Notes: a model not told the origin generated them from the sequence alone. A stretch of DNA of 64,000 nucleotides from Pseudomonadota bacterium (GCA_021777535.1 JAJYDN010000001.1:62001-126000); one strand, 5' to 3'; shown: positions 56,601-61,261, counted from the stretch's first letter. A program made the numbers and translations.

Positions 56601-57608
56601 ACCCGTGAGGACGATCAGATCGTTATCCGCCGCGGCGGGCGCACGCTGCTTGAGGGCGACCGCGTCAGCTACCAGAGCCTGTGGACGGAAACGTCGTTCC
56701 GCATGCAGGTCCTGCGCGACGAACCCGAGAGTGCCGCGGAATCCTATGAACTGATTGCCGACCGGAAGGATCCCGGACTGAGTTGCGAGACCGGCTTCGA
56801 TGTGACGCAGCCGCTTGCCCCCGCGTTGCTGTCGACAAAACCGAAGGTCGCCATCTTGCGTGAGCAGGGCGTGAACGGCCACCGGGAGATGGCGGCCGCC
56901 TTTATGGCCGCGGGCTTCGAGGCAGTGGACGTCACCATGACCGATCTCCTCGAGCGCCGCGAGGGTCTCGCGGGTTTCCAGGGATTGGCTGCATGTGGCG
57001 GGTTTTCGTTCGGTGACGTCCTCGGTGCGGGGGGCGGCTGGGCCAAGTCGATCCTCTTCAATGCGCGTCTGCGCGATGAGTTCGCACACTTTTTTGGGCG
57101 TCCGGAGACTTTTACGCTCGGTGTCTGCAACGGCTGCCAGATGCTGGCCCATTTGCGGGATCTGATTCCCGGCGCCGAGCATTGGCCGACCTTCATCAAT
57201 AACCGCTCCGCCCAGTTTGAAGCGCGTACCGTCCTGGTCGAGATACCAAAGAGTCCTTCCGTACTGCTCGCGGGCATGGCCGGATCACGGCTTCCGGTCC
57301 CGGTCGCCCACGGCGAGGGACGGCTGATCCTCGATGCTCCGGTCCTGCAGATGTTCGAGGAACGGCAGATCATCGCGGCGCGGTATATCGATCACTATGG
57401 CCGGCCCACCGAAACCTATCCGCGTAACCCGAATGGCTCGACCGGGGGCGTGACAGGACTGACGTCGGCGGATGGCCGCGCGACCATCCTGATGCCGCAC
57501 CCCGAGCGCGCGGTGTATGCCGCTTCCAACTCATGGCTGCCCCGGGACACGGGCGTATTCGGTCCGTGGTTCGAATTATTCCGCAATGCCCGGCGTCACG
57601 CCGGCTGA
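53700..57608 (+). CDS. purL: Phosphoribosylformylglycinamidine synthase PurL (large, single-chain)
   Basis: The ATP- and glutamine-dependent fourth step of purine synthesis. 1302 residues, the large proteobacterial form (E. coli 1295). N-terminal PurS-like part, the synthase halves with [22 protein letters not shown] and GGAASS, and a C-terminal class I glutaminase with LGVCNGCQM and HPERAVY. Starts with GTG 53700, preceded by GGGAGCGG. Its 3' end overlaps the lipoate ligase gene on the other strand by 33 bp. Confidence 0.96.
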
Positions 57609-58619
57609 GTCCGGCGGACCGAAAAGACACGCGATCAAGCTGTCGGTGGTGATGCCCAGACACCGGGCCGCATTGCAAAGCGGAAGCGTGTCTGCCGCAA
57701 AGCGCGCGCCTGTCCACTCTTTCATCCATGCAGACACGTCGCGGTCGGCGCCGGCGATCGCGCGAACCGATACGACGATGTCGTCGCGGATGCTGATCGA
57801 CAGGGCGATCGGCCCAGGCGGCGTGGCGACCACCCGCTGGCACAGGTACAGGCCTTCCTGGATTTTGAAGAGCGGCCGGGAGCGGGGTTCGTCGTCCTCG
57901 TGGACGCTCGCGGCGAGCTCCTTGGTTACCAGGCGTGCCTCACGAAGAAGCGCATCGGACACGGGCGCCATCTCGAGGCCGCCTACGAGCGGGCGAAAGG
58001 CCTGGATGAGGTACTCCTTGATGCGGTCGGCGGAAGGCGTGTGGCCGGTTTCGCGGCGGATCGATGTCATGTGGGACGCGAGGGCGCCCTTCAGGGCCAC
58101 CTTGAGGCGCGGGTCGGAAAGCCGCACGATGCGATGCATGAGGTCGTGATCGAAATCGAGGAGGATGCTGCCGACGAAGCAGAAATGGCCGTTGATGTCG
58201 GCCGCCCCCTGGCCGCCGATCTTGTGGCCTTGTTCCGTGACGATGTCATTGATCGGCCGCAGCCGGGCACGGATCCCCATCCTGCCGTACACGGCAACGG
58301 GCGCCTGCGACAAATGCCGGTACGCATCCTGCACGCCATTGGGAATCGGCGGATGCGGGCGCCTCATGACCAGCGTGTAGAAGACCTGGCCCGGGCCCAG
58401 CAGTACCATGCCTCCACCCGTCTCCCGCCGCATGACGGGAATGCCCTGTTCGCGGCAATACGCGAGGTCGACGGTCTCCTTCGCATCGAAGTAGCCAAGA
58501 CTCACGAAGGACTGCGACGGTTCGACGAGAACGAGCCCTTCCTGCCCAAGGCGCGCGAGCGCGTGGAAATAGCTTATGGGCAACAGGCCGGTGTTGTCGC
58601 GGGGCAGCAATAGTTGCAC
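57576..58619 (-). CDS. Lipoate-protein ligase with C-terminal accessory domain (LplA/sLpl-like)
   Basis: 347 residues. The N-terminal catalytic domain has the lipoate ligase signature [12 protein letters not shown] (RRxxGGG), [16 protein letters not shown] with the adenylate-binding Lys, and [10 protein letters not shown]. The C-terminal 90 or so residues ([15 protein letters not shown]...[19 protein letters not shown]) resemble the LplA accessory domain (LplB). The start is GTG 58619. It lies 63 bp from the divergent Crp/Fnr gene and near the LbpA/GcvH-like protein (59455), a plausible substrate. Sulfur oxidisers use dedicated ligases to load LbpA of the sHdr system; this assignment is inference. 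Confidence 0.85.
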
Positions 58620-58682: not shown

Positions 58683-59372
58683 ATGATGCAGGATAGCCTG
58701 CTTGTCGTCCGCAAGGCCGCGTTGTTTGCGAACCTTCTGCCCGAAGACCTCGAGCAGATTCTGAAGAACGCCCGGGTCCGCCAGTTCAAGAGCCATGAGC
58801 CGATTTTCTCGGCCGGCAGCGAGGCCCGGGCATTTTATTTCCTTGTATCCGGCAGTGTGCGGCTGTTTCGGCTGTCGCCCCAGGGCGAGGAGAAGGTCAT
58901 AGAAGTCATCATGCCGGATTCGACATTTGGCGAGGGCGTCGTGTTTCTGGGTGGCCGCTATCCGGTTCATGCGGCGGCCGTGACCGACAGCGAGGTCGTG
59001 GAGCTCGCCACGAACCATTTCAGCAGTGTGCTCGCCAGCAATCACGACACGGCCTTGCGCATGCTGGCGGGCCTTAGTACGCGGCTGCATCAGCTCATTC
59101 AGGACGTGGCATCGCTGACGCTGGAGTCGGCTGGCCAGCGGGTGGCGGGCTATCTCTTGTCCCAGTGCCCGCCTGGCGGTGGCCAGGCGGCCATCCATAT
59201 GATGATCCCGAAGAATGTCATCGCGTCACGCATCGGCGTCAAGGCGGAGACGTTCTCGCGGGTGCTGGCGGTCTTGCGTAGCGGCGGGCTCATTCACGTG
59301 GCCGGCAATGATATCCAGATACTCGACCGCGAAGCCCTCATGCGCTGGCGCGACGGTGTCGGGCGTCCGTGA
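58683..59372 (+). CDS. DNR-like Crp/Fnr family transcription regulator
   Basis: 229 residues. Cyclic-nucleotide-type beta-roll (about 10-125), dimerisation helix (ALRMLAGLSTRLHQLIQDV) and winged HTH (ASRIGVKAETFSRVLAVL). It aligns along its length with Pseudomonas DNR (for example FYFLVSGSVRLFRLSPQGEEKVIEV and LSTRLHQ), a haem-dependent NO sensor. There is no N-terminal cysteine cluster, so it does not sense oxygen like FNR. Two matching TTGA-type boxes lie downstream at 59388 and 60938. ATG 58683 (or 58686) has AGAGGGG upstream; TATATT at 58651-58656 is a -10 candidate. Confidence 0.9.
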   Translation: MMQDSLLVVRKAALFANLLPEDLEQILKNARVRQFKSHEPIFSAGSEARAFYFLVSGSVRLFRLSPQGEEKVIEVIMPDSTFGEGVVFLGGRYPVHAAAVTDSEVVELATNHFSSVLASNHDTALRMLAGLSTRLHQLIQDVASLTLESAGQRVAGYLLSQCPPGGGQAAIHMMIPKNVIASRIGVKAETFSRVLAVLRSGGLIHVAGNDIQILDREALMRWRDGVGRP

Positions 59373-59387
59373 GCGCCACCGGCCCTC

Positions 59388-59401
59388 TTGACCTGGGTCA
59401 A
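59388..59401. promoter_or_regulatory. FNR/DNR-type box upstream of the LbpA-like gene
   Basis: TTGACCTGGGTCAA is a perfect inverted repeat TTGAC-N4-GTCAA, extended to CTTGAC...GTCAAG. Its centre is about 60 bp before ATG 59455. CATGCT at 59425-59430 could be the -10, which would put the box near -41.5, the class II activator position. Confidence 0.75.
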
Positions 59402-59454
59402 GGAAGCGGCCGTGGCCCCAAATGCATGCTGCCATCACAAGAGAGGGCCGGATT

Positions 59455-59904
59455 ATGGCGGAATACCGCGGTTGCGAATTGCCCGAGGACCTCTTCTATG
59501 ATCTCGACTATGTGTGGGCGAGGCCGGAGGACAATGGCCAGGTGACTCTCGGCATCACCGATGGCGCGCAGACCATGGCAGGGCGCGTCCAGAAGATCCG
59601 CATCAAGAAAGTCGGCTTTCATGTGGCGGCAGGGCGGCATGTGGCGACGCTCGAGAGCGGCAAATGGGCAGGCGGGGTGCCATGCCCGTTCGCCGGCACC
59701 GTCGAGGCCGTCAATGACCAGGTGCTGGCAGTGCCCCATCTCGTCAATGTCAGCCCCTATGGGGAGGCATGGCTTGTAAAGGTCCGTCCGGATGAGCCCC
59801 AGGGGGCCCTGCTGGGCCTTGCGACGGGGACGGCGGCGATAGCGGCGCTGCGCCAATGGCTCGATCGGTATGACGTGCAATGCATGCGCTGCGCAGAATC
59901 CTGA
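59455..59904 (+). CDS. Lipoyl-carrier protein, LbpA/GcvH-like
   Basis: 149 residues. A single lipoyl domain of the glycine-cleavage H type. The lipoylation site reads TLESGK70WAGGVPCPFAG, not the VESVKAASD context of true GcvH. The ESGKW motif is that of lipoate-binding proteins (LbpA) of the sulfur-oxidising sHdr pathway, as far as I recall. No gcvT/gcvP or hdr genes lie in the window. ATG 59455 has GAGAGGG before it, and the gene sits downstream of a DNR-type box. It is followed by a hemerythrin 10 bp later, probably in one operon. Alternative: an ordinary GcvH homologue. Confidence 0.8.
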   Translation: MAEYRGCELPEDLFYDLDYVWARPEDNGQVTLGITDGAQTMAGRVQKIRIKKVGFHVAAGRHVATLESGKWAGGVPCPFAGTVEAVNDQVLAVPHLVNVSPYGEAWLVKVRPDEPQGALLGLATGTAAIAALRQWLDRYDVQCMRCAES

Positions 59905-59914
59905 GGTGGCCGTC

Positions 59915-60466
59915 ATGATACGAATTGAGGAGCAGGGCACGGCGCGGGCGGCCGGTTTCGATGACCCCATCGGCCTGCTGGAGGCCTGCCATGCGCGTAT
60001 CGCGGCGCATTGCATGACGCTCGGGAAGCTCGCCCGGCATCTGCAGGATTCAGGAGATCCGGCGATGGCCCGTGAGGCAGCCACCCGCGTTTTGCATTAC
60101 TTCGATACGGCAGGGCCCTTGCATCACGCGGATGAGGAGGCGGATCTGCGCCCCCTTCTGCAGACGCGGCTTGAAGCCTGTGGCGACGAGGCCACCTTGC
60201 GGCGTCTCGATGCGCTCATGAATGAGCATGCCGCGCTCGCAGACGCCTATGGACCGCTGCGCGCGGCGCTCGCCCGGATCGTGGCCGGCGCTGCCGTTTC
60301 CGGGCTGCCCATCGAACCATACGTCGGCCTCATGCGCCGCCATTTCACCGAGGAAAACGACTTGCTGTTCGTGCGGGCCCGTGCGCTTTTGAGTCCCGCG
60401 GATCTGCGTGTCCTCGGGGCCGCCATGGCCCGGCGCCGGGGGGTTCAGGCGGGTGCGGTGAGCTGA
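59915..60466 (+). CDS. Hemerythrin-like (HHE) protein
   Basis: 183 residues. A four-helix HHE fold with metal ligands visible in CHARIAAHC, LHYFDTAGPLHHADEEADLRPLL, NEHAAL and RHFTEENDLLF. HHE proteins bind diiron sites and respond to or handle oxygen, NO or iron. Start ATG 59915 with GAGGTGG upstream; the frame is open from 59870 but overlaps the LbpA-like gene. Ends in convergent overlap (22 bp) with another hemerythrin on the minus strand. Confidence 0.87.
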   Translation: MIRIEEQGTARAAGFDDPIGLLEACHARIAAHCMTLGKLARHLQDSGDPAMAREAATRVLHYFDTAGPLHHADEEADLRPLLQTRLEACGDEATLRRLDALMNEHAALADAYGPLRAALARIVAGAAVSGLPIEPYVGLMRRHFTEENDLLFVRARALLSPADLRVLGAAMARRRGVQAGAVS

Positions 60467-60882
60467 CTCGCGGCTTTCTCCAGCATCCCTTCCGGCAGTA
60501 GGGGGTCGACTGCGGGATAGAATTCCGTTTCCTCCCTGGCATCATGATGTGCAATGATCTGTCGGGTCGTGCCGAGAAGCGCCTGAGTCTCATCTTTGTC
60601 GGCGCTGGCCAGGGATTCCTCGATCTCTGCAAAAAAACTCCGTAAATCCCGGTGTCCCTTGCGCAGAATGCCCGTCAGTGCGTTGTCGGCGCCGTGAACG
60701 GACTCATAGGCTGGGAAGAGAACCTCTTCTTCGGCGCGCATGTGCCGTTCTATGGCGTCGCGAAACGCGGCGAAGGCGCGCCTTGCCCCGGACCAGTCGG
60801 CGGTTCCGGCGTGCCTTTCCAGGTCCTCGTAGAGTCTGTCGAGGAGCCGATGATGTTCGCTGAACAGGGTCTGTGTGCGCAT
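60445..60882 (-). CDS. Hemerythrin (HHE) domain protein
   Basis: 145 residues. Canonical HHE ligands: EHH near residues 9-11, RHMRAEEEVLFP, KGHRDL and AHHDAREETEFYP, so a full diiron site is expected. ATG 60882 follows AGGAGG on the minus strand. TAGACT (60914-60909, minus) is a -10 candidate, and the DNR-type box at 60938-60951 would then lie about -42 from its start, a class II activation geometry. Confidence 0.9.
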   Translation of the reverse strand: MRTQTLFSEHHRLLDRLYEDLERHAGTADWSGARRAFAAFRDAIERHMRAEEEVLFPAYESVHGADNALTGILRKGHRDLRSFFAEIEESLASADKDETQALLGTTRQIIAHHDAREETEFYPAVDPLLPEGMLEKAASQLTAPA

Positions 60883-60937
60883 AGGGATAGGCCTCCTGCC
60901 CTGCATGGAGTCTAGGCGGCACTTGCCGACCAATCCC

Positions 60938-60951
60938 TTGATGGCGGTCAA
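60938..60951. promoter_or_regulatory. FNR/DNR-type box between hemerythrin and thioredoxin-like genes
   Basis: TTGATGGCGGTCAA (TTGAT-N4-GTCAA). It shares flanks with the box at 59388: both read CTTGA...GTCAAGGA. It can serve the minus-strand hemerythrin and, on the plus strand, a promoter with TAAAAT at 60981-60986. Confidence 0.7.
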
Positions 60952-61012
60952 GGAGCGGTGCGCGGGGTGCGCGTTAGCCTTAAAATAGTCTGTTTCCACG
61001 GAGGGTCATGCC

Positions 61013-61261
61013 ATGGAAGTCCGGTTGCTCGTGTCCCAATGGTGCCCGTCCTGTCCACGGGCCGAGGCCGTATGGGCGGACGTCGCCAGGCGCCATCAGC
61101 TCGATTACAGCGTGCTCGATATCAGCAAGCCCGAGGGGCGCGCGCTGGTGGCGGATCTGCACATCCGCACGGTACCGGCCGTCGTGGTCGATGGGCAGCT
61201 GAAGGCGGTCGGCGTGCAGTCGCCGAGCGAGGCCTTGGCGCTTGTCGGTCTGGCCGCATGA
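61013..61261 (+). CDS. Small thioredoxin/glutaredoxin-fold protein with CPSC active site
   Basis: 82 residues. Active site C11-PS-C14 in SQWCPSCPRAE and cis-proline P55 in IRTVPAVVVDG. It is about the size of a glutaredoxin and lacks extra domains. Likely a cytoplasmic thiol-disulfide carrier. GGAGGG 7 nt before ATG 61013 gives the start; another ATG at 61008 is out of frame. It lies downstream of a DNR-type box and a TAAAAT -10 candidate. Confidence 0.85.
   Translation: MEVRLLVSQWCPSCPRAEAVWADVARRHQLDYSVLDISKPEGRALVADLHIRTVPAVVVDGQLKAVGVQSPSEALALVGLAA

Follow-up and report, generated by a model that had tools for sequence, protein, structure and literature searches.

Genes and regulatory sites at the locus

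A gene for a DNR-like regulator of the Crp/Fnr family (58683..59372, plus strand), whose product has an ExxSR recognition helix and lacks FNR-type cysteines, opens the set described here, which lies in a window (the whole stretch of DNA analyzed) of 64,000 nucleotides. Between its stop codon and the following gene lies box 1, an inverted repeat read directly as TTGAC-CTGG-GTCAA (59388..59401; 16-bp form CTTGACCTGGGTCAAG, 59387-59402), followed 23 bp downstream by a −10-like element, CATGCT (59425..59430, plus strand; TAGACT or TACACT in relatives). The next gene (59455..59904, plus strand; PF01597) encodes a lipoyl carrier with the GcvH fold, an N-terminal cysteine (Cys7), an ESGKW motif (Lys70), and a C-terminal CMRC; LbpA3 is the name used here for the distinct subfamily to which this LbpA-like protein belongs. 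The gene for the conserved hemerythrin-domain protein Hr1 (59915..60466, plus strand) starts 10 bp after lbpA3 and is convergent with that for a second hemerythrin-domain protein, Hr2 (60445..60882, minus strand); their PF01814 scores are 44.4 and 72.9 bits, against a gathering score of 25.3. Box 2, likewise read directly (TTGAT-GGCG-GTCAA, 60938..60951; 16-bp form CTTGATGGCGGTCAAG, 60937-60952), is intergenic, between the divergent genes for Hr2 and an 82-amino-acid thioredoxin with a CPSC motif (61013..61261, plus strand; PF13192, Thioredoxin_3). It has a −10-like element at a distance of 23 bp in both directions: TAGCCT toward the thioredoxin gene (60975..60980, plus strand) and, in the window's own genus, TAGACT toward Hr2 (60909..60914, minus strand). 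No box is present upstream of the regulator gene itself in the window. The genes named in the first-pass annotation were borne out at these coordinates by Pfam and NCBIfam, as Crp/Fnr, GCV_H-like, two HHE hemerythrins, and Thioredoxin_3.

The host is an acid-loving sulfur/iron oxidizer with a genome of 2.3 Mb in 76 contigs. Its family is taken to be Acidiferrobacteraceae, and the same locus is found in the relatives Acidiferrobacter sp. and Acidiferrobacteraceae bacterium. Divergent from the regulator gene is the genome's second lipoate-protein-ligase-like gene (57576..58619, minus strand), with an LplA-B catalytic domain (PF21948, E 1e-33). It is distinct from the sLpl(AB) of sHdr clusters (∼30% identity), has a paralogue in the sHdr clusters of relatives, and, across the loci compared, adjoins the regulator in the window's family only; it is possibly the dedicated ligase of LbpA3.

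LbpA3 and its association with sulfur oxidation

LbpA proteins were defined by a lipoyl lysine plus one N-terminal and one C-terminal cysteine missing from GcvH (eLife 37439), and LbpA3, with this lysine and both cysteines, falls within that definition. Scanning 84,980 species genomes with patterns derived from LbpA3 identified 96 relatives; the best 80 of these, with the window, make 81 loci, sixteen of them representing the window and its close family. The ESGKW lipoyl-lysine motif and a C-terminal CxxC (CMRC or CLRC) are present in 81 of 81 LbpA3 proteins in this set (best 80 of 96 plus the window). None of the LbpA1, LbpA2, and GcvH copies examined has the C-terminal CxxC: only one C-terminal cysteine occurs in the LbpA1 and LbpA2 encoded by relatives' sHdr clusters, and the examined GcvH copy has none. 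Cys7 is invariant and Cys143 nearly invariant in an alignment of 39 rows. Identity is 58 to 87% within LbpA3 and 42 to 47% between LbpA3 and LbpA1 or LbpA2. LbpA3 was weakly resolved as one group (support, 68/52) in a small tree of LbpA types in which four non-LbpA3 rows (G020, G028, G032, and G046) were mis-extracted, and the case for its distinctness therefore comes from the CxxC tail, identity values, and genomic context, not from the tree. In an AF2 model (pLDDT, 92.6), the protein adopts the GcvH fold, and the CxxC tail is unresolved.

LbpA3 genes are neither in nor beside the shdr cluster but at a separate locus, and boxes were found in none of the sHdr-LbpA or GcvH loci examined. The link to lipoate-dependent sulfur oxidation that had been proposed for the set is supported by co-occurrence: sHdrB2 (66 to 89% identity) is present in 32 of 36 LbpA3 genomes, versus 3 of 120 random Pseudomonadota, a comparison that spans several families and is uncorrected for shared ancestry. 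A close sHdrB2 is missing in three or four LbpA3 genomes. Neither sHdr-type LbpA genes nor sHdrB2 was found in the window's own assembly, probably because contig C46 (G000, L006:1-1910), which contains tusA, dsrE, an hdrC-like gene, and the start of a further reading frame, ends inside the sHdr cluster.

The gene neighborhood recurs well beyond the family. Among the 81 loci (best 80 of 96 plus the window), 78 have a thioredoxin, always with CxxC, within 4 kb of LbpA3, and nearby are a hemerythrin in 63, a DNR-like gene in 42, and a globin in 13; 63 loci have a box, with 87 boxes versus 0 for the reversed pattern. Betaproteobacteria are among the taxa in this set, as are Acidithiobacillus, Thioalkalivibrio, Sulfuriferula, Sideroxydans, Thiobacillus, Burkholderiales, and Paracoccaceae. 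Gene order varies: the Acidithiobacillus arrangement runs box, globin, FAD oxidoreductase, thioredoxin, hemerythrin, and LbpA3, while genus g7 of another family (f5) in the window's order has a DNR-like gene, a box, a small COX1-like membrane protein, LbpA3, and a fusion of thioredoxin with an NnrS-like domain. Plasmids of A. ferrooxidans, e.g., NZ_CP040512.1 (L175; globin-FAD oxidoreductase-thioredoxin-hemerythrin-LbpA3-DUF2249-hemerythrin, with two boxes), indicate that the globin-thioredoxin-hemerythrin-LbpA3-DUF2249 set can move. One genome of genus g3 (L051) has kept lbpA3 without a box and without a regulator nearby. A Pyr_redox_2 protein of ∼1,170 amino acids adjoins LbpA3 in genus g3 (L051:1781-5287) and in genus g7 of f5 (L063, low end) and might reoxidize the lipoyl carrier.

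Boxes, regulator, and wider regulon

Both inverted repeats, previously noted for their CTTGA context, are exact 16-bp CTTGAY-N4-GTCAAG palindromes, and nothing else in the window matches CTTGAYNNNNRTCAAG exactly. The genome-wide box scan proposed in the first-pass annotation gave 20 sites for the looser core TTGAYNNNNRTCAA in 2.3 Mb, versus 1 for the reversed pattern, and 5 full 16-bp boxes; at 20 cores per 2.3 Mb, the chance of both intergenic regions having one is p ∼2e-6. In 18 family genomes, the 16-bp box occurs 84 times, versus 2 for the reversed control. Of 15 family loci, 14 retain box 1 and 13 retain box 2, with positions unchanged, and this conservation across species makes a chance origin untenable.

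The spacing to putative promoter elements is equally regular. A TAnnnT element lies exactly 23 bp downstream of the edge of box 1 in 11 of 15 family loci and exactly 23 bp from the edge of box 2, toward the thioredoxin gene, in 12 of 14; norB promoters have CATAAT at the same offset, and outside the family the spacing peaks at 22 to 23 bp. Class II activators in FNR/CRP promoters bind with the box centered near −41.5. The 23-bp spacing would place the box centers at about −41.5, which fits class II activator sites and suggests that the boxes mediate activation.

In the window's family, norB, hcp-hcr, and DUF2249 genes likewise have the box in front of them, and elsewhere the module is found with globin and hemerythrins, which favors an NO-type regulon within the earlier proposal of an NO- or low-oxygen-induced set; DUF2249 is presumably the same as COG4309. 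The box-associated norB is of the quinol type, with COX1 and NorB cytochrome-c-like (PF22085) domains; Pfam identified this 772-amino-acid protein as NorB, while NCBIfam gave it no name. It is present in eight of 18 family genomes, six of the eight genes having an exact box at the same distance, and it is absent from the window's genus among the family genomes compared. Other genes behind boxes in relatives are nrdD, hemN, and a DsrC-like gene followed by Sulf_transp, and looser boxes in the window's genome precede hemN, nrdG, and others. The expectation of a small regulon held in part: orthologous boxes with fixed promoter spacing argue for a regulon, but the two boxes belong to a DNR-type regulon that is larger than a small two-box set. 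There is good support for a nitrosative-stress regulon of the DNR type whose conserved core contains a third LbpA linked to thioredoxin.

In the sister genus (L069, L072, L080, and L085), a CTTGAY-N4-RTCAAG box precedes the DsrC-like gene, followed by Sulf_transp (YeeE-like), hinting at more sulfur-transfer genes under the same control. A perfect TCCTTGACCGCGGTCAAGGA palindrome (C16:20805; L004:5001) lies ∼490 bp before the YeiH-like transporter gene. On contig C12 (L003:3850-5692), one of the FNR genes has NnrS and a third hemerythrin gene as neighbors, with a TTGAT-N4-GTCAA box between, forming a second NO-linked locus.

The regulator had been described as DNR-like, and its best solved relative is indeed DNR (PDB 3dkw, E 3e-38; next best, 3e-28). 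The genome encodes four Crp/Fnr proteins (the window's and those on C12, C73, and C16), and the N-terminal FeS cysteine motif of FNR is present in the C12 and C73 proteins and absent from the window regulator. His136, in an LSTRLH motif, is conserved in 39 of 42 relatives. The position of His187, which we take to be the heme ligand of Pseudomonas aeruginosa DNR, is Arg in the window regulator and in 31 of 42 relatives; because this residue is not conserved, the protein is classed as DNR-like and not as a proven DNR. All four Crp/Fnr proteins align with the same ExxSR recognition residues, so the boxes could be shared with the two FNR proteins, through which low oxygen may contribute to regulation.

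Interpretation and comparison with known systems

Chance or unrelated repeats can be dismissed with near certainty as the origin of the palindromes: cores of this type do occur in coding DNA of a single genome (C3:52965 and C10:26679), but orthologous conservation, excess over controls, and fixed −10 spacing contradict this reading, which was rejected on the controls and conservation. A more serious proposal, though still an unlikely one, is that the boxes are FNR sites, that the set is induced by oxygen limitation, and that the DNR-like gene is a neighbor with other or overlapping targets. The genome does encode two FNR-type proteins, ExxSR is common to all four regulators, and hemN, nrdD, and nrdG are also preceded by the looser core. 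However, the DNR gene is closely linked in 42 of 81 LbpA3 loci (best 80 of 96 plus the window) from several families, the companions are norB, globin, and DUF2249, and this genome has four C/G-rich CTTGA...GTCAAGGA boxes, which lie before lbpA3, between the Hr2 and thioredoxin genes, before hcp-hcr, and before the YeiH-like gene, not before hemN or nrd.

Regarding the carrier itself, its GcvH fold, its match to Pfam GCV_H, and its annotation on plasmids as a GcvH would suit an additional glycine-cleavage H protein, but this is highly improbable: LbpA3 scores under the NCBIfam GcvH cutoffs (71.7 versus 115.85 bits and 102.8 versus 117), has the LbpA-type cysteines together with ESGKW, and groups with LbpA1, apart from GcvH, and a separate GcvH gene exists. 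The cutoffs, the cysteines, and the separate gene led us to reject a GcvH identity. LbpA3 and thioredoxin might instead work as a dithiol system carried on protein, reducing S-nitrosothiols or other oxidized thiols under nitrosative stress, outside sHdr sulfur oxidation. Tight thioredoxin linkage and the CxxC tail are compatible with this, the neighbors of LbpA3 are NO-handling genes rather than sHdr genes, and the terms dihydrolipoic acid and thioredoxin co-occur in denitrosation literature (PMC9598160). We consider this role rather unlikely, since almost every LbpA3 genome also has sHdr (32/36 versus 3/120) and Cys7 and the C-terminal cysteine put LbpA3 in the LbpA family of sulfur oxidation.

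The reading that we favor, with some confidence as a whole, is that an NO-type DNR-like activator acts through the two boxes on LbpA3, thioredoxin, and hemerythrins, with LbpA3 serving sHdr under NO. The activator, most likely responding to NO through heme, would bind the two palindromes centered ∼41.5 bp before the predicted transcription starts and switch on lbpA3-hemerythrin, the divergent hemerythrin gene, and the thioredoxin gene. LbpA3 would carry a lipoyl group on Lys70, and the co-encoded thioredoxin would reduce the protein via its C-terminal CxxC; LbpA3 would then serve the sHdr sulfur-oxidation complex either as an isoform of the LbpA1/LbpA2 carriers for NO conditions or as their repair partner, and the hemerythrins would bind NO, O2, or iron. 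Whereas the genes, the boxes with their spacing and conservation, and the co-occurrence are observed, we infer NO as the signal, regulator binding, lipoylation, the redox relay between LbpA3 and thioredoxin with its chemistry, and the sHdr partnership. The absence of boxes from the sHdr-LbpA and GcvH loci examined speaks for this reading. Weighing against it are the Arg at the His187 position, the two FNR proteins with identical recognition residues and box type, the lack of norB in the window's genus, the g3 genome (L051) that has lbpA3 but no box or nearby regulator, the three or four LbpA3 genomes without a close sHdrB2, and the failure to find sHdr-type LbpA genes and sHdrB2 in the window's own assembly. 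More tentatively, and with the balance somewhat against it, LbpA3 could represent a functional class of its own, the third among lipoate carriers, NO induced and thioredoxin coupled. Its lipoyl arm and CxxC would then perform a thiol/NO chemistry, for instance denitrosation or an NO-resistant transfer of sulfur to sHdr, that is not known to have been assigned to any lipoyl protein.

Two conserved boxes beside an NO-type regulator apparently activate a lipoate carrier of a third, overlooked kind, along with thioredoxin and hemerythrins, and the recurrence of this set in many unrelated sulfur oxidizers points to a dedicated way to sustain sulfur oxidation under NO. If this is correct, lipoate, a cofactor whose part in sulfur oxidation is a recent discovery, comes under NO control, and there is a candidate answer to how lithotrophs sustain iron-sulfur- and thiol-based sulfur oxidation once NO appears, possibly from denitrifying neighbors or from nitrite at low pH. 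The literature searched, most subscription papers being outside its reach, contained no report of an LbpA under NO control. Why sulfur oxidizers have several LbpA proteins is a question left by a 2018 study (eLife 37439); with its own regulator, box, and thioredoxin, LbpA3 would make it partly testable in Acidithiobacillus and Thioalkalivibrio.

Among known systems, FNR/ANR regulons share the TTGAY half-site, in this genome too (hemN and nrd), but the window regulator is without the N-terminal cysteine motif of the two FNR proteins. HcpR regulons also place hcp under an NO-responsive Crp/Fnr regulator and often contain hemerythrin-like genes (PMC1274295), whereas the window regulator is closest to DNR by sequence. 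The DNR regulon of Pseudomonas (PMC1274295) has in common with the present one a DNR-like activator, a TTGAY-N4-RTCAA box, and the targets nor, hcp, and COG4309, and Rodionov et al. 2005 (PMC1274295) predicted DNR control of the A. ferrooxidans cgb-COG0543 operon, with which a dnr paralogue is clustered. It differs in that no denitrification operon is seen here, His187 is not conserved, and LbpA3 and thioredoxin are putative targets; that paper had 0 matches to the terms lipo- and thioredoxin. The LbpA1 and LbpA2 proteins of sHdr systems (eLife 37439; PLoS Biol 3002177) share with LbpA3 the GcvH-like fold, ESGKW, and the N- and C-terminal cysteines missing from GcvH. In contrast to these proteins, LbpA3 is encoded outside shdr clusters behind an NO-type box, has a second C-terminal cysteine that completes the CxxC, and has thioredoxin and hemerythrins as its partners.
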